DNA of 57,104 nucleotides, taken from the NCBI GenBank assembly GCA_903925015.1, contig CAIYDY010000283.1:1-57104 (forward strand). Reading direction: 5' to 3'. Positions 5,743 through 56,431 of the stretch are shown piece after piece. Each line of letters starts with the position of its first letter. Position 1 is the first letter of the stretch. The notes below the pieces were generated by a model. That model had not been told where the DNA came from. It saw only the letters and a list, made by a program, of their open reading frames with translations, and searched no databases. Source of the DNA: an uncultured Acidobacteriia bacterium (lineage in GTDB: Bacteria; Acidobacteriota; Terriglobia; Bryobacterales; Bryobacteraceae). Made by a program: the position numbers and the translations under genes.

Positions 5743-7248
5743 CTACGCGTCCAATCGCCGCAGACGGTCCGCCATGCCGATCTCGCCCTCTGGCCGCAGC
5801 AAGGGGAACAGAATCACGTCGCGTATGGATGTCCGGTTGGTCATCAGCATCACCAAGCGGTCAATGCCGATACCCTCGCCGCCGGTGGGAGGCATGCCGT
5901 AGGCCATGGCCCGGAGGTAGTCCTCGTCCATCTGGTGGGCCTCGTCGTCGCCGCGCGCCTGCATGTCGAGCTGGCCGTCGAACCGCCGACGCTGTTCGAT
6001 CGGGTTGTTGAGCTCGGTGTAGGCGTTGCCGATTTCCATGGACGCCGCGAAGATCTCGAAACGGTCCACCATCGACGGTTCAGCCGGATTGTTGTTCGCC
6101 AGCGGCGAGACCTCCACGGGAAATTCGTAGATGATGGTCGGCTGGATCAGCTTCTTCTCGGCGTGCACCTCGAAAAGGTGGGCCAGGCATTCGCCTGCCG
6201 TCGCCTTGGGCGCGTTGGCCAGCAGCCAGGCCGGATCACGGACTTGGTCCGGGGTGGGTGCGCCTTCGTCCTCCCAAAATTCCACCACGGCGTCGCGCAT
6301 GGTCAGCCGCCGCACATTGCCGAAGTCCAACTGGTGGTCTCCGAACTGGACTACGGTGCCACCGGTTGCATCGATGGCAATCTGCCGCAGCATGGTCTCG
6401 GTCAAGTCCATCAGGCCCTTGTAATCGGTGTACGCCTGGTAGAACTCGACCATGGTGAATTCCGGGTTGTGGCGTGTGGAGACGCCCTCGTTGCGGAAAT
6501 TGCGGTTGATTTCGTAGACCCGCTCCAAGCCGCCCACGATGAGCCGCTTCAGGTACAATTCCGGCGCGATGCGCAGGTAGAGGTCGATGTCGAGCGTGTT
6601 GTGGTGCGTCACGAACGGACGCGCCGCCGCTCCTCCGTAGATCGGCTGCATCATCGGCGTTTCGACTTCTATGAAGCCGCGCTCCTCCAGCTGGCGGCGG
6701 ATCGACGAAACCACTTTCGCGCGGGTCACAAAGACGTCGCGCACTTCGGGATTCGAAATCAGATCCAGATACCGCTGCCGGTAGCGGGTCTCGGTATCTT
6801 CGAGACCGTGAAATTTCTCCGGCATCGCCAGAAGCGTCTTCGAGAGGAACTCCAAGGACTCCACATGCAGACTCAGTTCACCGGTGCGGGTGATGAAGAG
6901 GTAGCCCTCGGCACCGACGATATCCCCGATGTCCAGCATCGAAAACAGCGCGTAGTCACGCTCCGGGACCGCGTCCTTCCGGACGTAGAACTGCAATTTC
7001 CCGCCGTTCTGCTGGACGTGCATGAACCCGGCCTTGCCCATCCGGCGGACGGTCTGGATGCGACCGGCCACGCGGACACGGATTTTGTCGGCTTCGAGCT
7101 CCTCGCCGGTCTTGGAACCGTAGCCCGAAAAGATCTCGGGAACGGTATGTGTGAAATCGAAACGCTTGCCAAAAGGCTTGTAGCCAAGCGCTTCAATCTC
7201 CGACACGCGCGTGGCGCGCTGCTCGAACAACTCGTCTTCCAGCGACAA
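5743..7248 (-). CDS. lysS: Lysyl-tRNA synthetase, class II
   Basis: This enzyme charges tRNA-Lys. The 501-residue product shows the OB-fold anticodon-binding domain (about 50-150, RVRVAGRIQTVRRMGKAGF) and the class II catalytic core. Motif 2 is FRNEGVSTRHNPEFTMVEF and motif 3 is GEGIGIDRLVML. I set the start at TTG 7248. An exact AAGGAG lies 6 nt upstream, the predicted N-terminus LSLEDELFEQR matches where LysS normally begins, and the length fits the family. A longer in-frame start at 7386 would run through the promoter and into the divergent glycosyltransferase gene, so it is rejected. A perfect TATAAT lies 39 nt upstream of the start codon. Confidence 0.96.
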   Translation of the reverse strand: MSLEDELFEQRATRVSEIEALGYKPFGKRFDFTHTVPEIFSGYGSKTGEELEADKIRVRVAGRIQTVRRMGKAGFMHVQQNGGKLQFYVRKDAVPERDYALFSMLDIGDIVGAEGYLFITRTGELSLHVESLEFLSKTLLAMPEKFHGLEDTETRYRQRYLDLISNPEVRDVFVTRAKVVSSIRRQLEERGFIEVETPMMQPIYGGAAARPFVTHHNTLDIDLYLRIAPELYLKRLIVGGLERVYEINRNFRNEGVSTRHNPEFTMVEFYQAYTDYKGLMDLTETMLRQIAIDATGGTVVQFGDHQLDFGNVRRLTMRDAVVEFWEDEGAPTPDQVRDPAWLLANAPKATAGECLAHLFEVHAEKKLIQPTIIYEFPVEVSPLANNNPAEPSMVDRFEIFAASMEIGNAYTELNNPIEQRRRFDGQLDMQARGDDEAHQMDEDYLRAMAYGMPPTGGEGIGIDRLVMLMTNRTSIRDVILFPLLRPEGEIGMADRLRRLDA

Positions 7249-7287
7249 ACAGATCTCCTTGTGTTCCGGGAACGGGGGTAATTCGTT

Positions 7288-7293
7288 ATTATA
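7288..7293 (-). promoter_or_regulatory. lysS promoter -10 box
   Basis: The minus strand reads TATAAT exactly, 39 nt before the TTG start of lysS. It would give a leader of about 33 nt containing the AAGGAG ribosome-binding site. The -35 region is ambiguous (TGGACA at a short spacing, or TTGGGG at a long one). Confidence 0.55.
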
Positions 7294-7363
7294 AGGGTTC
7301 GCGGCGCTGTCCACCCCAAGCTCTCCCCGTTCTCCAGCAAAACGCCCGCGACGAAGCCAGATT

Positions 7364-8125
7364 TTGACGCGATCCCTCTCCATCATTGTCCCCGCCTACA
7401 ACGAGCAGTCGCGGCTGCCGGGCACCCTCCAGAAAATTGAGGAATATCTGGGAGCAACGGCATGGGAGTTCGTCGAAATCCTCGTGGTGGATGACGGATC
7501 CAGCGACGGCACAGTAGCTGTTGCCGAAGCCTTCGCCAAAACGGTGGCCAACGTGCGAGTCCTTCGCAATCCGGGCAACCGGGGCAAGGGCTACTCCGTG
7601 CGCCACGGCATGCTCGCAGCGCGCGGCGAATGGCGGTTGTTCACGGACGCCGACCTTTCCGCCCCAATCGGGGAATTGGACAAGCTCTGGGCCGCTGTCG
7701 AACACGGAAATATCCAGGTCGCCATCGGTTCGCGGGCTGTGGACAGGTCCTTGATCGGCGTGCACCAATCGCCCTTCCGGGAGATCTCGGGGCGCATTTT
7801 CAATGTGGTGATGCAAGTCGCGGTGGGTCTGCGAATTTCCGACACCCAGTGCGGCTTCAAGCTCTTCCGCGCCGATGCCGCACGGGAGGCATTTTCGCGC
7901 CAGCTGATCGAGCGTTGGGGGTTCGACGTCGAGGTTCTCTACATCGCCCGGAAACGCGGCTTCAAGATTGCGGAAGTGCCGGTCCGGTGGGACAACGTCG
8001 AGGGCAGCAAGCTCAGCATGTTCAGCGGTGCCAACGCCTTCGTGGAGCTGGCCCAGGTGCGGATCAACGCACTGCAGGGAAAATACCGCCGGGAATCGAA
8101 TTCGGGCACGCCTGCATCCCAATAG
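7364..8125 (+). CDS. Family 2 glycosyltransferase, dolichyl-phosphate glucosyltransferase-like
   Basis: The GT2 fold is shown by LSIIVPAYNEQSRLPGTL at the N-terminus, the nucleotide-sugar binding VVDDGSSDGT, the DXD-type metal site LFTDADLSAP, and the acceptor region TQCGFKLFRADAA with WGFDVEVLYIARKRG. This pattern matches the ALG5/DPG-synthase subgroup, which transfers a sugar from UDP/GDP-sugar to a polyprenyl phosphate at the cytoplasmic membrane. The 253-residue protein has no C-terminal membrane helices, unlike many bacterial members. The start is TTG 7364 (TTG-ACG-CGA), with only a weak GAAG upstream. It ends 1 nt before the dioxygenase start, so translation is probably coupled. It could glycosylate lipid carriers used by the GT-C-like proteins nearby; that is inference. 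Confidence 0.82.
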   Translation: MTRSLSIIVPAYNEQSRLPGTLQKIEEYLGATAWEFVEILVVDDGSSDGTVAVAEAFAKTVANVRVLRNPGNRGKGYSVRHGMLAARGEWRLFTDADLSAPIGELDKLWAAVEHGNIQVAIGSRAVDRSLIGVHQSPFREISGRIFNVVMQVAVGLRISDTQCGFKLFRADAAREAFSRQLIERWGFDVEVLYIARKRGFKIAEVPVRWDNVEGSKLSMFSGANAFVELAQVRINALQGKYRRESNSGTPASQ

Positions 8126-8126
8126 C

Positions 8127-9005
8127 GTGACGATTCCAGGCATCCACCACATCACCGCCATCGCCGGAGACCCCCAGCGGAATCTGGATTTCTACACCGG
8201 CACCCTGGGGCTCCGGCTGGTCAAACTGACCGTAAACTTTGACGACAACGGCACATACCACTTCTACTTCGGCGATGCGGAGGGGCGTCCCGGCAGCATC
8301 CTGACATTCTTCCCATGGCCCACCGCTTATCCTGGCAGGCAGGGCATCGGCCAAGCGACGCTAGTCTCCTTCGCGGTGCCTTCGCTCGCCGGATGGCCTG
8401 AAAAACTGCCCGTCGCGATTCCCGGTGTCCGGTTTGGCCGGAACACCCTGTCGTTCGCCGACCCCGACGGAATGCGGCTGGAACTGGTGGAAAACGGCGG
8501 CACAGGCACCGAGATCACCGGCTTCCACGGAGTCACTCTGTCGGAAGCCGGTTACGAATCCACCGCACGCCTGTTGACGGAAACTTTCGGATACCAGCCC
8601 GCAGGGCAGGAGGGCAACCGGTTCCAATTCGCAGCTCCCGCCGGCGACGTGGTGGAACTACTCTGCCAGCCCGACGGACGGCGGGGCAGCATGGGCTCGG
8701 GTACGATCCACCACGTGGCATTCCGGGCGGAAACCGACGAGATCCACAAGGCTTGGCAATCCAGGATTGCCGCGCTCGGGTTCAACGTGACCCCCGTGCT
8801 GGACCGCCAGTACTTCCATTCCATCTACTTCCGCGAGCCCGGCGGCGTGCTGTTCGAGATCGCAACCGACCCGCCCGGATTCACCACGGATGAATCCCTG
8901 GCCGACCTCGGCACGGCCCTGCAGCTTCCCCCGTGGCTGGAACCGGCCCGCGGGGACATCGAAAACATCCTTCCGAAACTGGTGCTACCAAAATATGGCC
9001 GCTGA
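8127..9005 (+). CDS. Ring-cleaving dioxygenase of the VOC/glyoxalase superfamily (MhqO-like)
   Basis: The 292-residue protein contains two VOC modules. The first starts at GIHHITAIAGDPQRNLDFYTG and the second covers GFHGVTLSEAGYESTARLLTE to the C-terminus. The metal ligands fit His in IHHITA, His in IHHVAFRA and Glu in GGVLFEIATDPPGF. These features match the MhqO/MhqA, LinE/PcpA-like family of Fe(II) hydroquinone or catechol dioxygenases. GTG 8127 is taken as the start because the homologous region begins at its fourth codon, and an upstream in-frame extension would be antisense-like sequence inside the glycosyltransferase gene. It overlaps the next gene by 11 bp, an esterase of the MhqD type, supporting a shared role in quinone/hydroquinone handling. 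Confidence 0.85.
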   Translation: MTIPGIHHITAIAGDPQRNLDFYTGTLGLRLVKLTVNFDDNGTYHFYFGDAEGRPGSILTFFPWPTAYPGRQGIGQATLVSFAVPSLAGWPEKLPVAIPGVRFGRNTLSFADPDGMRLELVENGGTGTEITGFHGVTLSEAGYESTARLLTETFGYQPAGQEGNRFQFAAPAGDVVELLCQPDGRRGSMGSGTIHHVAFRAETDEIHKAWQSRIAALGFNVTPVLDRQYFHSIYFREPGGVLFEIATDPPGFTTDESLADLGTALQLPPWLEPARGDIENILPKLVLPKYGR

Positions 9006-9609
9006 ATTCATCCACAAATACATCCCGGGCACAATCCCGGCGACCATTCTCGCAATGCACGGCACCGGCGGCGACGAAAACGATCTCCTCGGAGTCGCCC
9101 GCGCGGTTTTCCCCGGTGCGGCCGTGCTTAGCCCGCGCGGCAAGACCAACGAACACGGGGCGTACCGGTTCTTCCCGCGCCTCGCGCCGGGGGTATTCGA
9201 CGAGGAGGAAATCGCACTCCGAACCCAGGAGCTGGCCGAATGGCTCGGATGGGCAGCCGGGGAATACGGCTTCGACCAAACAAAGCTCTACGCACTCGGG
9301 TATTCCAACGGGGCCAACATGGCGATTGCCACGATGCTGCTGTACCCTGGCTCAATCGCCGGTGGAGTGATGCTGCGTCCGATGCCGGTAATCCGTCCCA
9401 ACCCGATGCCGGATCTAGCCGGTGCCCCGATTTTGATCGCAGCCGGCGAGGCCGATCCGATGGTTCCGGTGAAATCCGCGCACGCCCTTGCCGCAATGAT
9501 GGCCGAGGCGGGCGCGGCAGTGGATTTCGCGGTGATGGAATCGGGCCACGATCTGACGCCGGAGGATTTCTCAGGCGCAAAGCGCTGGTTCGCGGCGTTG
9601 GCCGGATAG
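8995..9609 (+). CDS. Phospholipase/carboxylesterase family hydrolase (MhqD-like)
   Basis: This 204-residue alpha/beta hydrolase has an oxyanion-hole segment AMHGTGGDENDL, a nucleophile elbow GYSNGAN with the catalytic Ser, Asp in GEADPMVP and His in SGHDLTPED. Family members include carboxylesterases and the B. subtilis MhqD protein, which is encoded with MhqO-type dioxygenases. ATG 8995 gives the expected family length; a longer frame starting at 8890 would overlap the dioxygenase extensively. The 11-bp overlap with the dioxygenase suggests translational coupling. The substrate is not determinable from sequence. Confidence 0.85.
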   Translation: MAAEFIHKYIPGTIPATILAMHGTGGDENDLLGVARAVFPGAAVLSPRGKTNEHGAYRFFPRLAPGVFDEEEIALRTQELAEWLGWAAGEYGFDQTKLYALGYSNGANMAIATMLLYPGSIAGGVMLRPMPVIRPNPMPDLAGAPILIAAGEADPMVPVKSAHALAAMMAEAGAAVDFAVMESGHDLTPEDFSGAKRWFAALAG

Positions 9610-46652: not shown

Positions 46653-48059
46653 ATGCCGCTACAGACCCTCCTCCAGGAAATCGCACACATCGTCGGGCCC
46701 GAGGGCCTGCTCACCGGGGAGGACGTCTCCGCGCGCAGCACCGGCTGGATTTCCCGCGAGCCGATGGAAGCAGCAGCGATCGTCCGCCCGCGCACCACGG
46801 ATGAAGTCTCGCAAGTCCTCCGCCTCTGCCATCAGGCCGGACAGCCCGTCGTCGCCCACGGAGGCATGACCGGCCTGGTGGAAGGCACGCGCACCACCAG
46901 CGCCGAAATCGCTCTGTCCCTCGAACGCATGACGGGCATGGAGGAAGTCGACGGAGCCGCCCTCACTGTCACGGTGGAGGCCGGCGTGGCACTCCAGACC
47001 ATCCAACAAAAGGCCGAAGCCGCAGGCCTGCTCTTCGCCCTTGATCTTGGAGCGCGCGGCTCCGCCACCATCGGCGGACTCATTTCCACCAATGCCGGCG
47101 GCAACCGAGTCATCCGCTACGGCATGACGCGAAACCTGGTGCTCGGCCTGGAGGCTGTCCTGGCCGACGGCACGGTCATCTCCTCCATGTACCCCATCGT
47201 GAAGAATAATTCCGGCTACGACCTGAAACAGCTCTTCATCGGGTCCGAAGGTACGCTCGGAATCGTCACCCGGGCTATTCTCCGCCTGCAGCCCATGCCC
47301 CGCAGCCAATGCACAGCCGTCATCGCCGTGAAGGAATTCTCCGCCCTGCCGAAAGTTCTGAGGGAACTCGGCGGCGCGCTCGGGGGCACGCTCTCCGCGT
47401 TCGAAGTCATGTGGAACGAGTTCTACCGCCTCGTCACCACCCCGCCCGCCCGCCAATCCCCTCCCCTGCCCCAGACGTATCCCTACTACGCCATCGTCGA
47501 CGCCCTCGGCTCCGACCAGAACGCCGACCAAGCACGTTTCGAGGCCGCGCTCGAACAGATCTCCGACGCCGGACTGATCGAAGACTGCGTCGTAGCCCTC
47601 ACCGCCGCCGAGCGCAAGGCCATCTGGGCCATCCGCGACGACGTCGACCAGTTCCACCAGTACCGACCCTGGTTCGGCTTCGACGTCAGCATGCCCATTC
47701 CCACCATGGAGTCCTACGTTGCCGAAGTCCGGGCCAAATTGGCCGCCGAATGGCCCAGCCACGTCTGTTTCGTCTTTGGCCATATGGGCGACGGCAACCT
47801 GCACCTGAACGTGCACGTCGGAAGCGGTGAACACCAATCCCGCACTCGTGTCGAGGAGATCGTCTACGCGGGCATTGGCGGACGGAAAGGGTCCGTATCC
47901 GCAGAACACGGCATTGGGATGGAAAAGCGGGCGTATCTGGAGTTGTGCCGGACTCCGGCGGAGCTCGAACTCATGCGGACGCTGAAGCGGGCACTGGATC
48001 CCAAGGGCATTCTGAATCCCGGCAAGGTTCTGATAGCGTCGCAGACAGGGACAATGTGA
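46653..48059 (+). CDS. FAD-linked oxidoreductase, glycolate/D-lactate dehydrogenase (GlcD) type
   Basis: The 468-residue flavoprotein has the PCMH-type FAD-binding motif (VVAHGGMTGLVEGT, GARGSATIGGLISTNAGGNRVIRYG). The C-terminal catalytic/metal domain has FGHMGDGNLHLNVHV and SAEHGIGMEKRAYLELCR. It should oxidise a 2-hydroxy acid (D-lactate, glycolate or 2-hydroxyglutarate) and pass electrons to the respiratory chain. Unlike E. coli, no GlcE or Fe-S GlcF gene is adjacent. Its stop overlaps the GTG of the sensor kinase, so substrate oxidation and sensing may be coupled. Confidence 0.9.
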   Translation: MPLQTLLQEIAHIVGPEGLLTGEDVSARSTGWISREPMEAAAIVRPRTTDEVSQVLRLCHQAGQPVVAHGGMTGLVEGTRTTSAEIALSLERMTGMEEVDGAALTVTVEAGVALQTIQQKAEAAGLLFALDLGARGSATIGGLISTNAGGNRVIRYGMTRNLVLGLEAVLADGTVISSMYPIVKNNSGYDLKQLFIGSEGTLGIVTRAILRLQPMPRSQCTAVIAVKEFSALPKVLRELGGALGGTLSAFEVMWNEFYRLVTTPPARQSPPLPQTYPYYAIVDALGSDQNADQARFEAALEQISDAGLIEDCVVALTAAERKAIWAIRDDVDQFHQYRPWFGFDVSMPIPTMESYVAEVRAKLAAEWPSHVCFVFGHMGDGNLHLNVHVGSGEHQSRTRVEEIVYAGIGGRKGSVSAEHGIGMEKRAYLELCRTPAELELMRTLKRALDPKGILNPGKVLIASQTGTM

Positions 48060-49279
48060 TCCAGGTCCAGAAACTCCGCATCCAGGACGGCATCCTCGCC
48101 CTGCTGTTTGGAGCGCTAATCTGGCTCGCCCACGACCTCCAGGAAGAGATCATCATCGGCATCCTGGCGGCATTGCTCCTCGCAGACCGCAAGACCGAGG
48201 CCCTGTCCACCCTCCAGGGCCGAATCGCCATCACGTCCCTGCAGCTGGTGGCTTTGTTTTGTCTTTTCTGGATCACAGACGGCGTAAACACCCTCTACTA
48301 CCTGCTCCTCCTGGTCCCGATCGTCTCCGCCGCCACGTACCTGGGAGTCATCGGGACCGTCGTTAGCTCAGTACTCGCCATCGGCACCTACCTCTGCTAC
48401 CTGCTGTTCATCGATTGGAACCAGTGGTTCATCGAAACCGAGCAGATGCACGTACTTGCCGTACGCGGCATCCTCCTAGCAGTCGCCGCCGTCCTCGTCA
48501 ACTACCTCGGCGAGGCCATCCGGCTCGAATCCGCCCGCCACAAGGCCGCGGCCGAACAACTGGCAGAAGCCAACCGTCACCTGCGCGAGGCCGAAGCCGC
48601 CGTCCGCCGGTCGGAGCGCCTGGCAGCCTTGGGCCAGCTGTCCGCCGGACTCGCCCACGAGCTGCGCAATCCCCTGGGCTCCATCCGGGGTTCCGCCGAA
48701 CTGTTGACCCGCGCAACCGCCAAGGACAACGAAGTCGCCCGCGAACTCGCCCAAATCATCAGCGAGGAAGTGGACCGCACCAACTCCCTGGTCACCCGCT
48801 TCCTCGATTTCGCCCGCCCGCTGGAGCCCCGCCGCGAAACCACCGACATCACCCGAACCATCGACCGTGCCGCCAAGCACGCCCGCCTCGAAATCATCCG
48901 CAATTTCTCACCAGACGTTCCAGCGCTTGAAATCGACCCCGCGCTTATGGAACAGGTTCTGCTGAATCTCCTCAGCAACGCTCAGCAAGCCTCGGCCGAC
49001 GGCGCACCCATCACCGTCGCAACTCGACTAGTAGGCGCCCAAGCCGAAATTGCCATCGTCGACCACGGTTGCGGCATCCCCGTCGACAAGCTCGACACCA
49101 TCTTCAACCCATTCGTCACCACCAAGCAGACCGGCGTCGGACTCGGCCTCGCCATCGTGGCCAAAATTGTGGACGGCCACGGCGGTAAAATCGCGGTTGA
49201 AAGCGAAGTGGGCAAGGGCAGCACTTTTCGGGTCCTCCTGCCGCTCGCCGCTCCCACGGCGGTACCCCAGAAAGCCTAA
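48056..49279 (+). CDS. Membrane-bound sensor histidine kinase (NtrB/AtoS type)
   Basis: The 407-residue protein has five to six TM segments in residues 10-165, then a short coiled linker. The HisKA region has the phospho-acceptor His in LSAGLAHELRNPLGSIRG. The HATPase_c boxes are N (LLNLLSNAQQASAD), G1 (IVDHGCGIP) and G2 (GVGLGLAIVAKIVDGHGG). No PAS or periplasmic domain is evident, so the membrane part may sense the signal. GTG 48056 overlaps the dehydrogenase stop by 4 bp. ATG of the cognate regulator follows directly after its stop. Together they form a two-component system. Confidence 0.9.
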   Translation: MIQVQKLRIQDGILALLFGALIWLAHDLQEEIIIGILAALLLADRKTEALSTLQGRIAITSLQLVALFCLFWITDGVNTLYYLLLLVPIVSAATYLGVIGTVVSSVLAIGTYLCYLLFIDWNQWFIETEQMHVLAVRGILLAVAAVLVNYLGEAIRLESARHKAAAEQLAEANRHLREAEAAVRRSERLAALGQLSAGLAHELRNPLGSIRGSAELLTRATAKDNEVARELAQIISEEVDRTNSLVTRFLDFARPLEPRRETTDITRTIDRAAKHARLEIIRNFSPDVPALEIDPALMEQVLLNLLSNAQQASADGAPITVATRLVGAQAEIAIVDHGCGIPVDKLDTIFNPFVTTKQTGVGLGLAIVAKIVDGHGGKIAVESEVGKGSTFRVLLPLAAPTAVPQKA

Positions 49280-50629
49280 ATGAAAAAGCGCATCCTGATC
49301 GTCGAAGACGAGGACAAGCTCCGCCGCATCATCGAGTTGCAACTGATCGACGCGGGCTACGAGCCAGTGAAGGCCTCGACGGCCGAGGCCGCGCTCCCCC
49401 TCATCGACCGCGCCGACCTGATCCTCACCGATTTCAAGCTTCCCGGCATGACCGGCCTCGAAATGCTGCAGCTCATCCGTCGCAGCGATCCCGGCATACC
49501 CGTGATCATGATGACGGCCTTCGGTACCATCGAAAACGCGGTGGAAGCCATGAAGGCCGGGGCGGCGGATTTCCTGCTGAAACCGTTCTCCCTCGACCAC
49601 CTGACAACGGTCGTAAACAAAGCGCTGGAGGTCCGGGGGCTGCGCGACGAAAACCGCCGCCTCAAGGAGGAGCTCGGCCGCCGCTACCGGTGGGACAACA
49701 TCGTGGGCCACAGCCACGCGATGCAGCAGATTTTCGGGACCATCCTGCGGGTGGCACCCTCGCGCGCGACCGTCCTCCTGGCTGGCGAAAGCGGCGTCGG
49801 CAAGGACCTCATTGCCCGCGCCATCCACTTCCACTCCCCGCGCAAGGACAAGCCCTTCGTCAAAATCAACTGCACCGCGCTGCCGGAAAACTTGATGGAG
49901 AGCGAGCTTTTCGGCTACGAGCGGGGTGCTTTCACCGGTGCCAACATCTCCAAACCCGGCAAATTCGAACAGGCCGATGGCGGCACCGTAATGCTCGACG
50001 AAATCGGCGACGTCCCGGCTTCCATCCAAGTGAAGCTCCTCCGGGTGCTGCAGGAGCGTGAAATCGAACGCCTCGGCAGCAACAAAACCCTGCACATCGA
50101 TGTCCGCGTGATCGCTGCCACCAACAAGGACCTGCGCGCAGCGCTCGAAGACGGCACCTTCCGCGAGGATCTCTACTACCGCCTCAATGTGGTGCCCATC
50201 GAGATCCCGCCGCTCCGCCAGCGACCCGAGGATATCGCGTTCCTCGCCGAGCATTTCGTGGAAAAGCTGTCCCCCGAAATGGGCGGGCGGGTGCACGGCA
50301 TCACCCAGGCCGCGGTCGACAAACTGCTCACCTACCACTGGCCGGGCAATGTCCGCGAACTGGAAAACGTGATTGAACGCAGCATCGTGATGGCGCTGGG
50401 AGACCGTTTGGACGCTGGCGACATCCGCCTCGACATGAACCTCCGCCCCAGGCACGTCCAAGGGGAGTTGGCACTGCCCGAGGGCATGAGCCTCGACACC
50501 TTTGAGCAGGAATTGATCAAAAACGCCCTGAAGAAAGCGGACGGCAATAAGAGCCATGCGGCCCGCCTGCTGGGATTGACGCGCAACGCACTCCGCTACC
50601 GCCTCACCCAAATGGGAATCGACAGCTAA
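49280..50629 (+). CDS. Sigma-54-dependent NtrC/AtoC-family response regulator
   Basis: The 449-residue protein has a receiver domain (LIVEDEDKLRRI, phospho-Asp in LILTDFKLPGMTG, Lys in FLLKPFS). The AAA+ activator domain has Walker A LAGESGVGKDLIARAI, the sigma-54 contact loop GAFTGA in FGYERGAFTGAN, Walker B VMLDEIGDVP and the R-finger region. A C-terminal Fis-type HTH (HAARLLGLTRNALRYRLTQMGI) follows. It should activate sigma-54 promoters when phosphorylated by the upstream kinase; no -24/-12 promoter is evident in the immediate region. Its stop overlaps the MFS gene's end by 4 bp. Confidence 0.93.
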   Translation: MKKRILIVEDEDKLRRIIELQLIDAGYEPVKASTAEAALPLIDRADLILTDFKLPGMTGLEMLQLIRRSDPGIPVIMMTAFGTIENAVEAMKAGAADFLLKPFSLDHLTTVVNKALEVRGLRDENRRLKEELGRRYRWDNIVGHSHAMQQIFGTILRVAPSRATVLLAGESGVGKDLIARAIHFHSPRKDKPFVKINCTALPENLMESELFGYERGAFTGANISKPGKFEQADGGTVMLDEIGDVPASIQVKLLRVLQEREIERLGSNKTLHIDVRVIAATNKDLRAALEDGTFREDLYYRLNVVPIEIPPLRQRPEDIAFLAEHFVEKLSPEMGGRVHGITQAAVDKLLTYHWPGNVRELENVIERSIVMALGDRLDAGDIRLDMNLRPRHVQGELALPEGMSLDTFEQELIKNALKKADGNKSHAARLLGLTRNALRYRLTQMGIDS

Positions 50630-51865: not shown

Positions 51866-52189
51866 ATGCGCCAAGCAGTGACCAGACAAACGGCCAAGCT
51901 TTTGCTCGGCGTCTTCGTTGCGCTGCTCTGCATCTGTCCGCTCATGTGCGCCCAGCCCGCCGATTCGCATGCGTGCTGCAAGCACAAACAAACCCAAGCC
52001 AACACCAAGCCCTGCGATTCCGCCATTGCCGCAACCAAAACGCCGGCCATCCCCCAGGTGCCGATAGCTGCGGCGCTGCCCGGACCGGTTCTGGAAGCCA
52101 GCTTGCTCCCGGCTGAAGTGACCCTTTCACCGACCCCCACGGCGTTCGATCCGCCCCCGCCCAAACGCAAACTCACGCTCCGTATTTGA
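51866..52189 (+). CDS. Small exported Cys/His-rich protein, first gene of the copper operon
   Basis: The 107-residue protein starts MRQAVTRQTAKLLLGVF and has a hydrophobic export signal (about 10-28, LLLGVFVALLCICPLMC). A compact metal-ligand cluster HACCKHK (about 34-40) follows, and KPC lies further on. The rest is Pro/Ala-rich and ends PPPPKRKLTLRI. The signal is either a cleaved peptide or a lipoprotein with LMCAQ as a lax lipobox. It lies upstream of a Met/His-rich protein, CopZ and CopA, which suggests copper binding in the periplasm. No family is recognised. ATG 51866 has GGG immediately before it, not a standard spacing. Confidence 0.72.
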   Translation: MRQAVTRQTAKLLLGVFVALLCICPLMCAQPADSHACCKHKQTQANTKPCDSAIAATKTPAIPQVPIAAALPGPVLEASLLPAEVTLSPTPTAFDPPPPKRKLTLRI

Positions 52190-52251
52190 TCTCCAAGCCC
52201 CTTCACGTCCAACCCCAGTAAGTCGAAGTGTATTTCCTTGGAGAAAAATTC

Positions 52252-53505
52252 GTGCGTTTATTTGCATTTCTGATGTTCGCCGCCTCCCTGTGCGCCCAAC
52301 ATGACATGAGCCAGATGGAGGGCATGCAGCACATGCTCCATGACATGGCCGCGATGGCGGGTGACAAATCCCCCATGACAGCGTCCGGCACCAGCTTCAA
52401 CCCCGCCGCCACCCCGATGGAGATGCTGCACCTGAAATCCGGGAGATGGACGCTTGGGCTGCACGGAGTCCTGTTCCTGGCAGAGATCCAGCAGACCGGC
52501 CCCAGGGGCCACGACAAACTCGCATCCGTCAACTGGATGATGGCCGACGCATCCACCAAACTCGGGCGCGGCACCTTCACCGTCCGAACAATGCTGAGTC
52601 TGGAACCCACCACCATCACCAACCAACGGTATCCCCTTCTGTTTCAAACCGGTGAAACCGCACACGGCAAGCCGATCATCGATGGTCAGCACCCGCACGA
52701 TTTCGTCATGGAACTGGCCGTGCAGTACACGCAGGCCTTCGGGAAGAGCAATCGTTTCTGGCTCTACGCGGCTCCGGTCGGCGATCCCGCGTTCGGTCCG
52801 GTTGCATTTCCCCACCGCGCCTCCGCCGCCGAATTGCCGCAAGCCACCCTCGGCCACCACCTGCAGGACTCCACCCACATCTCCAACGAGGTGGTAACAG
52901 CGGGCATCTCCCACGGCATTTTCGGCGTCGAGGCCAGCGGCTTCCATGGCGGAGAACCCAACGAAAACCGTTGGAATATCGACCACGGCCCGATTGATTC
53001 CTATTCCGGACGCCTAACCATCACCCCAAATCCGCGCTGGGCCGCGCAAGTTTCGGCAGCACGCCTCGCGCACCCCGAACAACTGGAGCCGGGCGACCAG
53101 ACCCGCATCGGGGCGTCCATCACGAACATTCGGCCTTTTCCGAATGGCGAAATCGCCACAAGCCTCATCTGGGGCCGCGTCCACAAGACAGCCGGGGGCG
53201 ACAACCTGAATGGATACACCGTCGAATCCGTGGCGCGCTTTCGGAAGTCCAATTACGTGACCGGAAGGATCGAGGTGGATGACAAGGATGAACTCTCCAC
53301 CGGCACTCAGTCGCTGCGTGGCACAATCGGGGCATACACGCTTGGATATACCCGTGAAGTCGCCCGCCTGCCGGGATTGGGGGCTGCTGTTGGTGCGAAT
53401 TTCACCTCGTACAGCATGGCGGCCGACGTGCATAAGGTTTACGGGCAACACCCAGTGTCCGTAATGGTTTTCCTGCGGCTTCGGCTCAGGGCTTGGTCTT
53501 TTTAG
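52252..53505 (+). CDS. Outer-membrane beta-barrel-like protein with Met/His-rich N-terminus (copper operon)
   Basis: The 417-residue protein has a signal peptide (MRLFAFLMFAASLCAQ), then a Met/His-rich stretch (HDMSQMEGMQHMLHDMAAM) typical of copper-binding periplasmic proteins. The remainder alternates short aromatic and polar beta-strands with many Gly/Asn turns (GRWTLGLHGVLFLAE, QHPHDFVMELAVQYTQAF, GAYTLGYTREVARLPG) and ends VFLRLRLRAWSF, a barrel-like terminal strand ending in Phe. GTG 52252 has GGAG 8 nt upstream; an in-frame ATG at 52228 has no such site. The family is not recognised by name. Context with CopZ/CopA implies a role in copper efflux or sequestration at the outer membrane. 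Confidence 0.78.
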   Translation: MRLFAFLMFAASLCAQHDMSQMEGMQHMLHDMAAMAGDKSPMTASGTSFNPAATPMEMLHLKSGRWTLGLHGVLFLAEIQQTGPRGHDKLASVNWMMADASTKLGRGTFTVRTMLSLEPTTITNQRYPLLFQTGETAHGKPIIDGQHPHDFVMELAVQYTQAFGKSNRFWLYAAPVGDPAFGPVAFPHRASAAELPQATLGHHLQDSTHISNEVVTAGISHGIFGVEASGFHGGEPNENRWNIDHGPIDSYSGRLTITPNPRWAAQVSAARLAHPEQLEPGDQTRIGASITNIRPFPNGEIATSLIWGRVHKTAGGDNLNGYTVESVARFRKSNYVTGRIEVDDKDELSTGTQSLRGTIGAYTLGYTREVARLPGLGAAVGANFTSYSMAADVHKVYGQHPVSVMVFLRLRLRAWSF

Positions 53506-53516
53506 GAGGAACGTCA

Positions 53517-53729
53517 ATGGAGAAATTGGAACTCAATATTACTGGCATGACCTGTGGCGGCTGCGTGCGCAGTGTCCAAAAGAAGCTGGCGGGCCTTCCC
53601 GGGGTTTCCTCGGCCAAGGTGGACCTTGCCGCCGCTGAAGCAGTGGTGGAGTTCGACTCCTCCGCGACGGGAGCAGGTGCCATGGTAGCGGCGGTCGCGG
53701 CAATCGGTTTTCAAGCGTCCTTGAAATAA
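53517..53729 (+). CDS. copZ: Copper chaperone, heavy-metal-associated domain (CopZ-like)
   Basis: This is a single HMA domain of 70 residues with the metal motif GMTCGGC (C13, C16) and the pattern KKLAGLPGVSSAKVDLAAAEAVVEF. It binds Cu(I) and hands it to CopA. AGGAGG 6 nt before ATG 53517 is a strong ribosome-binding site. It ends 4 bp before copA, which has its own HMA domain. An in-frame ATG at 53493 is rejected because it would absorb the end of the outer-membrane gene. Confidence 0.9.
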   Translation: MEKLELNITGMTCGGCVRSVQKKLAGLPGVSSAKVDLAAAEAVVEFDSSATGAGAMVAAVAAIGFQASLK

Positions 53730-53733
53730 TCCG

Positions 53734-55827
53734 ATGGGATCGGTCAAGGACGTTGAATTACCGATCGGCGGCATGACCTGCACGGCCTGCGCCCGCACGG
53801 TGGAGAAGCAGCTCGGCGCGGCCCCCGGCGTTGAACAGGCCAACGTCAACTTTGCAACCCGTATTGCGTCGATTCGATACAACGCCGCGCTGACGGACGT
53901 ACCCGGTCTGGTCCTTGCGGTGCAGGACGCCGGTTTCGACGTTCCAGTGGAGCCCCAGGAAATCGCGGACAAGGCCGAAGCGCGCGCCATGCTGCGCCGA
54001 CTGCTCTTCGGAGCGTTGTTCGCAGTTCCCGTCGCCATCCTCGGCATGGCGGAGCACCTTCCGTGGGTTCAATTTGTCCTGACAATGCCGGTTCTGGCGT
54101 TTTCCGGCTGGCCTTTCTACCACGATGCCTTCACTGCCGCGAGGCACAAATCGGCCAACATGAATACCCTCGTGGCCTTGGGGACCTCGGCGGCATTCCT
54201 GTTTTCAGTTTTCCAACTCGTGACCGGCCACATGGAAGTCTATTTCGAGGCGGCGGCAACCATCGTCGTCTTGGTTCTGCTGGGACGGCTGTTGGAATTC
54301 CGTGCCCGAGGAAAAGCGTCCGAAGCCATCCGGCACCTGATGACCCTCCAGCCCGAAACCGCCCGCGTCCGCAACAGCCAGGGAGTCGAGCGGGAAGTTC
54401 CTGTGATGGACGTCGCCGTCGGAGACTCCATCGTGGTCCGGCCGGGCGAAAGGCTCCCGGTCGACGGAGTTGTTGAGGAAGGCGCAACAGAGATCGACGA
54501 ATCCATGCTGACCGGTGAAAGTCTACCTGTCGGAAAGTCCACCGGGGCCGGGGCCTTTGGAGGAACGATGAACGGATCTGGAGCCATCGTGTACCGTGTG
54601 ACCGGTGTTGGGCGCGAAACAGCCCTCGCCAGGATCGCGGACATGGTCAAGAAGGCGCAGGGCTCCAAGGCACCCGTCGCCAGAATGGCGGACACCATTA
54701 GCGGCTACTTCACCGGAGCAGTGGTTTTTGCCGCATTGCTCACCTTTGCAATCTGGCTTTGTTTTGCGCCGTTGGGAACGGCACTGGTGAACGCGGTTGC
54801 GGTCCTGATTGTGGCCTGCCCCTGCGCGATGGGTCTCGCGACTCCCGCCGCGATCATGGCCGGGACCGGTCGCGGAGCCGAACGTGGCATCCTGATCCGG
54901 AACGGCCAGGCACTCGAATCCGCGGCGCGTATCAATCTTGTGGTCTTGGACAAGACTGGAACCATCACGCTCGGACGACCCCGTGTGACGTCCTTCCGTG
55001 TTCGGCCCGGCTTCAACGAGACCGAGGTTCTTGGTCTGGCCGCTGCCGTCGAAAAGTGGAGCGAACATCCCATTGCGCACGCTGTCCTCGATCTGCAACG
55101 GCAGCGGTTCGGCTCTGTGGCGATCCCCGATGCCACCGAGTTTCGGGCGCTGCCCGGCACTGGAGCCAGCGCCCGTGTCTCGCGCCGCCAAGTCTTTGTT
55201 GGGAAGGGAGCGTCCGGCGCGGTGGAAGTCCGCCTTGATGACGTGGTTGCCGGCGAATTCGAATTTGCGGATACGGTCAAGACGGAAGCCCGCACCGCCA
55301 TCGCACGGTTGCGGGAGGCGGGAATCGAAGTGCGGATGGTGACCGGCGACACCAAAACCACGGCCTTGGCGGTAGCAGCGGAGGTTGGCATTGAAATCAG
55401 CAATGTCCTGGCCGCTGTAACGCCCCAGGGCAAGATTGACGAGATCCAGCGCCTCCGGTCGATGGGAAGTCGCGTAGCCATGGTGGGTGACGGCATCAAC
55501 GACGCTCCGGCCCTCGCAGCCGCCGACGCCGGCATCGCCATTGGAACGGGCGCGGGTGCCGCGATGGAGGCTGGCGGAATCGTTTTGGTGCGGGGAGACC
55601 TGTCCGGGGTGCCGGAGTCGTTGGAGCTGGCCCGGAAGACCATGCGGATCGTTCACCAGAACCTCTTTTGGGCCTTTGGGTACAATGCCCTTGCGATTCC
55701 GGTGGCAGCCGGAATGCTCTACCCCTGGACCGGATGGCTTCTATCGCCCATGTTGGCCTCGGCCGCCATGGCGATGTCGAGCGTCTCAGTGGTCCTGAAC
55801 AGCCTCCGACTGCGAGGCAAGAGCTAG
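53734..55827 (+). CDS. copA: Copper-translocating P1B-type ATPase
   Basis: The 697-residue Cu(I) exporter has one N-terminal HMA domain (GMTCTAC, C16 and C19) and eight TM helices. The ion-binding C362-P363-C364 lies in [14 protein letters not shown]. The phosphorylation site is D406 in LDKTGTI, and SEHPIAHAV is the nucleotide-binding His-Pro. [19 protein letters not shown] is the hinge, and the C-terminal YN and M-x3-S ligands are in [16 protein letters not shown] and [15 protein letters not shown]. These residues fit CopA (Cu+) rather than Zn/Cd types. It is the last gene of the copper operon, and no CueR or CsoR gene is adjacent. Confidence 0.95.
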
Positions 55828-55855
55828 GACTTCGCACCGTTTCCGGCAAGTGGGC

Positions 55856-55861
55856 TACAAT
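55856..55861 (+). promoter_or_regulatory. efp promoter -10 box candidate
   Basis: TACAAT lies 12 nt before ATG 55874 in the 46-bp gap after copA, with GAGG between. A -35 is not clear (TTCGCA at a long spacing). Confidence 0.38.
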
Positions 55862-55873
55862 AGAGGTTTCGCA

Positions 55874-56431
55874 ATGTTAACAGCTACCCAGTTGCGGCCT
55901 GGAATGGTCGTAAAGCACAACAACGAGCTTTACTCGGTGTTCAGCATGACCCACCGCACGCCCGGAAACCTCCGCGGCTTCGTGCAGGTGAAGATGCGCA
56001 GCCTGAAGAACGGTTCCATGATGGAAAACCGCTTCTCCTCCGAAGACAAGGTCGAAAAGGCCATCATGGAGGAAGTGGAAATGGAGTACCTCTATGACGA
56101 TGGAGAGTACTACTATTTCATGAACACCCAGGACTACGAGCAGATGCATCTCACGAAGGATCTGCTGGGCGACGCGATCTACTATCTGATACCGCAGCTT
56201 AAGGTCAAGGTGGAGTTCTACGAGGGCAAGCCGATGAGCGTGGAGCTTCCGGCGACGGTTGACCTCACCGTCGTGGAAACCGAACCGGGCCTCAAGGGTG
56301 CGACGGTGTCCAATGTCGGCAAACCCGCGAAACTTGAGACGGGCCTCATGGTGCAGGTTCCCGCCTTCATCGTGGAGGGTGAAAAGATCCGCGTCAACAC
56401 CTCCGAAGGCACCTACCAGGAACGCGCTTAA
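55874..56431 (+). CDS. efp: Translation elongation factor P
   Basis: EF-P relieves ribosome stalling at proline stretches. The 185-residue protein has the three-domain layout: a KOW-like domain I with the modification loop [11 protein letters not shown] (residues 27-37), then domain II and an OB-type domain III ([30 protein letters not shown]). The loop tip holds Asn32-Leu33-Arg34, not Lys34 as in E. coli (lysylated by EpmA) or Arg32 (rhamnosylated by EarP). It may be unmodified or use another system. GAGG is 8 nt upstream. It is separate from copA by its own promoter candidate and followed by a terminator. Confidence 0.95.

Follow-up and report, generated by a model that had tools for sequence, protein, structure and literature searches.

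A putative leader reading frame and a porin-like barrel at the head of a copZ-copA operon in an uncultured Acidobacteriia bacterium

Two uncharacterized genes upstream of copZ and copA

We analyzed two open reading frames (ORFs), here called ORF A and ORF B, that precede copZ and copA on contig CAIYDY010000283.1 of an uncultured Acidobacteriia bacterium; "the window" denotes the whole stretch of 57,104 nucleotides (nt). On the plus strand, the operon runs in the order ORF A (leader), ORF B (barrel), copZ, and copA, with gaps of 62, 11, and 4 nt, respectively, and the Shine-Dalgarno sequence of copZ overlaps the stop codon of ORF B (Table 1). An earlier note, made from the letters of the DNA alone, had placed a 107-residue Cys/His-rich exported protein and a 417-residue barrel-like protein, Met/His-rich at its N-terminus, before copZ and copA at short gaps; the coordinates, gaps, and families were confirmed here. 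As detailed below, the most likely role of ORF A, judged by its sequence features, is that of a regulatory leader like CutF and CruR.

CopZ matched Pfam PF00403 (HMA) with 61.4 bits (cut-off 24.8), while no NCBIfam copper-chaperone model reached its own cut-off for this protein. CopA scored 583.7 bits against NCBIfam TIGR01511 (cut-off 397), identifying it as a copper P-type ATPase, and the next-best match to it within its own genome was only 34% identical. Neither ORF A nor ORF B had a Pfam or NCBIfam match at E ≤ 1. Against PHROGs, ORF A gave a single weak match (E 0.082) and ORF B none. Both upstream ORFs are genuine, and together with copZ and copA they make up one operon, in which they come first.

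Table 1. Features of the operon in window coordinates
Feature	Position	Strand	Details
ORF A, leader ORF	ATG 51866 to TGA 52189	+	107 amino acids (aa)
HACCKHK in ORF A	51968-51988	+	residues 35-41
Cys50 of ORF A	52013-52015	+	58 residues from the C-terminus
PPPP of ORF A	52151-52162	+	residues 96-99
Leu-Arg-Ile-stop end of ORF A	52178-52189	+
5' arm of hairpin, TCTCCAAG	52190-52197	+	starts immediately behind the leader stop codon; complement of the Shine-Dalgarno region
3' arm of hairpin, CTTGGAGA	52237-52244	+	with the barrel Shine-Dalgarno GGAG (52240-52243)
ORF B, porin-like outer-membrane barrel (modeled)	GTG 52252 to TAG 53505	+	417 aa
Disordered Met/His-rich N-terminal tail of ORF B (predicted)			residues ~15-44
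Loop 2 of ORF B (modeled)	52600-52704	+	residues 117-151; invariant Gly134 Glu135, Gln-His-Pro-His (146-149)
Loop 3 of ORF B (modeled)	52783-52881	+	residues 178-210; invariant His188 Arg189 His202 His203 Asp206 His209
copZ	53517-53729	+	70-aa HMA-domain protein, taken as copper chaperone
copA	53734-55827	+	697-aa copper P1B-type ATPase

The end of the putative leader and the predicted hairpin at the barrel gene start

ORF A has a strong hydrophobic N-terminal segment, as judged by hydropathy, and its C-terminus reads PPPPKRKLTLRI; there is no CxxxC or CXXC in its mature part and no RAPP motif at its end. Leader-like ORFs were collected upstream of barrel relatives. A first filter, which required PP, was positive in 42 of 106 loci (four of the 110 had too little upstream sequence); in 1.88 Mb of sequence from other strands it picked up five ORFs of this kind. 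Because this requirement missed leaders that lack PP, the filter was changed. A later listing comprised 60 of 110 loci; by eye, its entries L048 and L083 look spurious. Locus counts exclude L001, which is the window again, and the plasmid loci L031–L033; L012, a copy of L109, was also left out of the 101 loci considered next.

Among these 101 barrel loci with enough sequence, the window included, 55 passed a leader filter that left the C-terminus unused: an ORF of 60–190 aa that ends 20–160 nt before the barrel and has a hydrophobic N-terminus as well as two or more additional Cys. An [LI]R[IVT]-stop end was found in 44 of the 55 filtered leaders; of the 182 ORFs of this type elsewhere in these loci, just one has it, and this lone exception precedes a TolC-like gene by 54 nt. 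For folding, 48 leader loci were chosen by their [LI]R[IVT] ends and intergenic regions of 25–160 nt; removal of four near-duplicates left 44 non-redundant leaders, a set separate from the 44 of 55 above. Their last three residues are LRI (36), LRV (4), LRT (3), or IRV (1), and the Leu and Arg codons vary synonymously. From position -12 to position -7, counted from the end, Pro is more frequent than any other residue at every position.

A Cys lies 55–61 residues from the C-terminus in 34 of the 44 leaders (the average in 2,000 shuffles was 16.2, the maximum 29); distance 58 occurs 16 times and distance 59 occurs 18 times. The position of the last Cys at least 50 residues from the end varied far less when measured from the C-terminus (standard deviation, SD, 3.8) than from the hydrophobic segment (SD 11.2). 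The sequences otherwise diverge: 33 aligned relatives have a mean column identity of 18%, and besides the end motif by which they were selected only Met1 and one Cys are invariant. The dN/dS ratio was nevertheless 0.17–0.48 in seven of eight pairs of relatives, and 1.40 in the eighth, whose members are 98% identical; no pair included the leader of the window itself. The low ratios in its relatives argue that ORF A is not a chance frame and, together with the synonymous variation of the Leu and Arg codons, that the peptide is what is kept.

A profile of the leader (A3) matched only ORF A in its own genome. In 199 genomes of the phylum, it found 16 places in 15 genomes, ten of them directly upstream of a barrel (ORF A among them), in a search that was not independent since some genomes also supplied training rows. 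By eye, the other six comprised three ORFs with KRGPP before TonB-dependent receptor-like genes, one before a TolC-type gene, and two that look spurious. Short exported-type ORFs stand before TonB-dependent receptor-like genes in L124 (1495–1884, reverse complement), L132 (1474–1896 and 1933–2478, in tandem), and L133 (1474–1887, reverse complement). They carry CCRxxGxHHC-like motifs and KRGPP near their ends, and they resemble published RGPP/RAPP upstream ORFs (uORFs), which have already been described before TonB-dependent receptor genes (PMC12992588; here and below, statements attributed to a paper refer to the portions of it that were available). Leaders before TolC-type genes occur in L057 (7542–7931, reverse complement) and L129 (1498–1863), ending in LRI and LRR, respectively; hence, genes other than the barrel can also follow a leader of this class.

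The RNA downstream of the leader stop codon is predicted to pair with the start of the barrel gene. In the window, the two arms in Table 1 form a perfect 8-bp stem, and a 126-nt piece had a minimum free energy of -26.8 kcal/mol (z -3.26), with none of 200 shuffles as stable. The mean z over the 48 folded loci was -1.35, with 29 loci below -1 and two above +1. In 34 of the 44 non-redundant loci, whose leader-barrel intergenic regions span 45–151 nt, the center of the Shine-Dalgarno partner lies no more than 25 nt from the leader stop. The same measure gave 11.1 for shuffled intergenic regions (SD 2.6, maximum 15, 60 rounds), and 8 of 35 for barrel loci that have no leader.

The pairing is specific to each locus. 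Across the 44 loci, post-stop arms paired with their own Shine-Dalgarno region at -13.04 kcal/mol and with those of other loci at -11.16 kcal/mol, a difference of -1.88 that was reached in none of 20,000 permutations; with dinucleotide-shuffled arms, the difference was -0.05 (SD 0.35, 60 rounds). After redundancy was cut by barrel identity, the observed pairing was matched in 46 of 20,000 permutations for 31 loci below 70% identity, in 89 for 12 loci below 60%, and in 303 for 10 loci below 55%. The RNA that follows the leader thus covaries with the start of the barrel gene.

The barrel, its relatives, and their neighborhoods

ORF B was confidently modeled as a 16-strand, porin-like outer-membrane barrel. 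The AlphaFold2 model, built from a 70-sequence alignment, had a mean predicted local distance difference test score (pLDDT) of 86.8 and a predicted template modeling score of 0.84, and it bears out the earlier description of the protein as barrel-like. Sixteen strands were counted manually between residues 59 and 412, short strands being joined, and residues 1–37 have a pLDDT below 50, as expected for a disordered N-terminus. The best structural matches were 16-strand porins (Z 22–24), including OprP (Z 23.9, root-mean-square deviation 3.4, 300 residues aligned) and OmpF-type porins (Z about 22.5), and Foldseek likewise returned the porin class. PcoB was not among the 50 structural matches listed, which is no evidence on how the two folds are related. 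The fold that ORF B has in common with known porins does not by itself show a function.

The 70-sequence alignment has 39 invariant columns; six of these are His, every one of them in loop 2 or loop 3. By general porin topology, loop 3 (residues 178–210) would be the constriction loop inside the pore. The tail, taken from residue 21 to a conserved Ser-Gly-Thr, consists of 19.8% Met and His, compared with 6.9% in the barrel, and these residues were more frequent in the tail than in the barrel in 93 of the 95 measurable loci (of 110).

No porin family in Pfam matched ORF B, and the sole Pfam match of its 70 relatives at E ≤ 0.1 was that of one member to PF19413 (YaiO, E 0.012). Sequence searches of the PDB with ORF B (P0002; E up to 1) and with query A2 (E up to 10) found no match. 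PF05275 (CopB/PcoB) was found neither in ORF B, nor in any of the 70 relatives, nor anywhere in the same genome, with Caulobacter vibrioides as a positive control. We therefore ruled out membership of ORF B in PcoB/CopB, given the missing PF05275 match and 16 modeled strands instead of 12; by family, the system is neither CusCBA nor PcoAB, as the earlier note had supposed.

The barrel is present in 47 of the 199 genomes. A scan of genome contigs yielded at least 558 barrel relatives among at least 588 pattern matches; 80 were kept, nearly all from Acidobacteriota. No relative was found on viral contigs. One Pontibacter plasmid and two Sphingobium plasmids carry the barrel. On the former it adjoins a copper ATPase and a four-helix copper-binding protein, and on both of the latter it stands beside MerR, glutaredoxin, and DUF305 genes (names as annotated). 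A heavy-metal ATPase lies beside the barrel in one Sphingobium stretch, and none is listed in the other. On these two plasmids (L032, 9028–9606; L033, 9069–9680) a leader-like ORF ending in PPPPRIA or PPPPKIA, plus a second small Cys-rich ORF, precedes the barrel, and it is these ORFs and the barrel that the MerR and glutaredoxin genes adjoin.

Within the fetched DNA (up to about 6 kb on each side, less at contig ends), copA accompanied 11 of the 80 relatives, the window excluded; one of the eleven, L099, is a partial match at 37% identity. About 0.26 would be expected, given 46 copA matches in 40 genomes (about 157 Mb, hand-summed) and 0.881 Mb of DNA in the 80 loci. The copper link of the barrel family is real, but it is far from universal. 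The earlier note had named lack of co-occurrence with copper genes as grounds for giving up its copper reading, and from this it escapes only in part: copA is enriched well above expectation, and 69 of the 80 relatives have none in the fetched DNA.

The same counts bear on an alternative in which the barrel is a general or an anion/metal porin linked to copper only by chance, and what the leader senses is a different metal or thiol oxidative stress. In its favor, the closest folds are those of general porins and of OprP/OprO, and most relatives have no copA nearby. It does not account well for six invariant His in two loops together with a Met/His-rich tail, for the excess of copA beside the barrel, or for the copper and heavy-metal ATPases beside it on the Pontibacter plasmid and one Sphingobium plasmid, and we hold it to be unlikely.

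A related group of barrels (L042, L046, L047, L050, L051) has no leader. In the neighbor clusters represented by L046, L047, and L051, the genes read as HlyD, TolC, a sensor kinase, and a response regulator, and these may be another regulatory solution. In L054 (about 5950–9600), an MFS-like ORF lies directly upstream of the barrel.

Two further neighbors were noted in the window itself. A sensor kinase and a sigma-54-type response regulator (assigned by sequence) occupy 47945–50629, upstream of a divergent MFS-like gene. Directly after copA, at 55850–56431, lies an ORF whose product, from its sequence, we take to be EF-P. EF-P relieves stalls at Pro and helps to translate Pro runs. Its position next to the operon is probably chance, an EF-P-like ORF being absent by eye after copA in L034, L035, and L054, the three relatives closest in layout (L034 stops soon after copA). 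CruR regulation is reported to be independent of EF-P (PMC9426467).

Copper sensing and comparison with known systems

As the earlier note had observed, there is no CueR or CsoR gene among the ORFs that neighbor the operon. The whole genome had no CsoR match and only two CueR-type matches, both below the cut-off; two CusA-type pumps scored above the cut-off elsewhere in it. The scarcity of CsoR and CueR matches fits a sensor role of the leader and is no proof of it. How copper is sensed was a question that the note had left, and the signature of a copper-sensing leader in ORF A offers a possible answer. The note had also proposed that both upstream proteins extend the copper route to the periplasm and outer membrane. 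For an outer-membrane barrel with a Met/His tail this is plausible; ORF A, by its end motif, Cys spacing, and the pairing of the post-stop arm with the Shine-Dalgarno region, was rejected as part of an export route and bears a leader signature instead.

We consider it probable that the leader ORF senses copper in cis, opens the hairpin, and switches on a copper porin and then copZ-copA. The leader would act during its own translation and export, with its tail touching the ribosome and its Cys/His motif just out of the ribosome or the Sec channel as the ribosome nears the stop codon. If copper were bound at this moment, the ribosome would linger at the Pro-rich, Leu-Arg-Ile-stop end and cover the post-stop bases, which otherwise would pair with the Shine-Dalgarno region of the porin gene. 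A ribosome parked on Leu-Arg-Ile-stop would cover the 5' arm, since the size of the ribosome footprint implies that it reaches bases this near the stop codon. With the arm covered, the hairpin would open and the porin be translated, and translation of copZ, whose Shine-Dalgarno sequence overlaps the porin stop, and of copA would follow. The Met/His tail of the porin might then bind periplasmic copper and its His-rich loops form a metal-selective passage, through which copper may be released or equilibrated across the outer membrane, while CopZ and CopA would carry Cu(I) from the cytoplasm to the periplasm. Copper-ON is our best guess for the direction of control since the sequence features, except for the missing CxxxC in the mature part, are those of the CutF design and the leader heads an efflux pair.

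Several observations weigh against this reading. By the filter, 46 of the 101 barrel loci have no leader, although L053 and L058 have one further upstream, and L054, among the closest relatives, is a barrel-copZ-copA locus without one. Some leader tails contain no PP; ten of the 44 leaders lack a Cys 55–61 residues from the end, a distance window that was picked after the distances had been seen. In 39 of 44 loci, C is the last base of the Ile/Val/Thr codon, so a nucleotide-level constraint near the leader stop is possible. A 74-nt piece of the window folds unexceptionally (z -1.72, 11 of 200 shuffles as stable), and the Shine-Dalgarno partner lies away from the stop in ten of the 44 loci. The probability that the Shine-Dalgarno region is paired differs little between leader and leaderless loci (0.79 and 0.71, p 0.024); it is the location of the partner, unlike pairing probability alone, that separates the two. 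The many barrel relatives without copA also count here, so that for the family as a whole a copper role is argued partly from motifs. Lastly, the tail of CutF alone gave no ribosome stalling in a LepB fusion test (PMC9973294).

The direction of control could also be the reverse, as in CruR: without copper the ribosome would stall and the operon be on, with copper the stall would be relieved and Rho would terminate transcription, and the barrel would be a copper-uptake channel that excess copper turns off. CruR controls an outer-membrane transporter in a copper-off manner (PMC9426467) and arrests translation in vitro (PMC12992588), PcoB is reported to admit copper (PMC9210255), and uORFs with KRGPP near their ends precede TonB-dependent receptor-like genes in the same phylum. 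Our leader, however, heads the efflux pair copZ and copA, which would not be expected to be shut off in copper. It has no RAPP motif and no DUF2946 match, and its short intergenic region (62 nt, within the range given above for the 44 loci) with a covarying Shine-Dalgarno hairpin is CutF-like; between cruR and bfrG there are 162 nt (PMC9426467). For these reasons, copper-OFF control is the less likely direction, and we judge it quite improbable. That ORF A functions in the periplasm, binding copper as a chaperone or scavenger and passing it on to the barrel, as its signal-type N-terminus, Cys/His motif, and the dN/dS below 1 in seven of eight pairs might suggest, is very doubtful given relatives so divergent that Met1 and one Cys alone are invariant beyond the end motif, and a chaperone would not predict an extreme C-terminal constraint, a Cys spaced from the end, or pairing between downstream RNA and the Shine-Dalgarno region.

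Returning to the copper-ON leader, termination arrest at its end is an attractive possibility. A bolder proposal is that Leu-Arg-[Ile/Val/Thr]-stop defines a new class of copper leaders, which would act by termination arrest rather than through Pro-Pro or RAPP, let the ribosome cover an anti-Shine-Dalgarno arm, control unrecognized His-lined copper porins, and replace CueR/CsoR in many Acidobacteriota; we advance it tentatively, with the odds against it. In the more cautious form, two 'hypothetical proteins' become one unit open to experiment. With the leader, copper sensing by nascent chains would reach, in Acidobacteriota, an end motif that is neither RAPP nor DUF2946 and has its own spacing, and the leader might explain how a soil bacterium controls a copper operon without a nearby copper regulator. 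The barrel, for its part, would represent a new family of candidate copper porins, hidden from surveys of Pfam-domain neighbors because it has no Pfam model.

Among known porins, ORF B resembles OprP/OprO, OmpF, and BpsOmp38 in its modeled 16-strand barrel, eight extracellular loops, and long loop between strands 5 and 6; it differs in sequence (6–13% identity in structural alignments), in its His-rich loops 2 and 3, and in its Met/His tail. With PcoB/CopB (PF05275) it shares an outer-membrane barrel, a disordered Met/His-rich N-terminus, and a copper operon. PcoB has a disordered, His/Met-rich N-terminus that is important for copper resistance (PMC12509749), which for ORF B is an analogy only. 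By contrast with the 12 strands of PcoB (PMC9210255, section 2.2), ORF B has 16 in the model, and its operon includes no multicopper oxidase partner; the six invariant loop His are a further difference.

CruR/DUF2946 of Bordetella pertussis (PMC9426467) is likewise an exported-type uORF with a Cys motif, at the head of a copper-linked operon with an outer-membrane transporter. Its Cys pair lies 53–56 residues from the end (positions 90 and 93 of 145). ORF A differs in having no PF11162, no CXXC in its mature part, and no RAPP, in its short intergenic region with a Shine-Dalgarno hairpin, and in the efflux operon that it heads. PF11162 (DUF2946) was found neither in ORF A, nor in its own genome (Caulobacter vibrioides being positive as a control), nor in any of 33 relatives, and membership of ORF A in DUF2946/CruR was ruled out by the missing match. 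In the available text of papers on copper leader peptides and Acidobacteriota copper porins, neither the Leu-Arg-Ile class nor the barrel family is described; supplements lay outside this scope, and the CutF cluster logos could include the class.

The closest counterpart is CutF of the Rhodobacter capsulatus cutFOG operon (PMC9973294, PMC8456105), which like ORF A is a small exported-type leader with a Cys motif and a Pro-rich C-terminus, immediately upstream of a copper gene. Experimentally, CutF controls its neighbor in response to copper via a stem-loop that hides the Shine-Dalgarno sequence, and its authors concluded that copper, bound while CutF is exported during translation, makes a stalling-like process at the Pro-rich end last longer, so that the stem-loop opens and cutO is switched on (PMC9973294). 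In our system, a stem-loop over the Shine-Dalgarno sequence of the next gene is predicted and covaries; this feature was shown for CutF and is outside the published rules for CutF-like ORFs. Those rules (PMC9973294) ask for fewer than 150 aa, PP in the last 15 residues, and a Cys/His metal motif (CxxxC in CutF, variants accepted); ORF A has 107 aa from the ATG at 51866, PPPP at residues 96–99 of 107, and HACCKHK plus Cys50. They also ask for a Sec signal peptide, where ORF A has the hydrophobic N-terminal segment noted above from hydropathy.

The differences from CutF are nonetheless clear. CutF ends in PEPEGPPPRL, whereas the class of ORF A ends in Leu-Arg-Ile/Val/Thr-stop and does not have PP in all relatives. 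The mature part of ORF A lacks CxxxC, and its Cys lies about 58 residues from the end, compared with 46–50 for the Cys pair of CutF (positions 69 and 73 of 118, PMC8456105). ORF A heads a porin gene and copZA, while CutF heads a multicopper oxidase gene, and the relatives of ORF A are mostly from Acidobacteriota, whereas Pseudomonadota and Bacteroidota dominate the published list of CutF-like ORFs. Collectively, its sequence features mark ORF A as a probable CutF-like leader with an end motif and a spacing of its own, joined to a candidate copper porin family.

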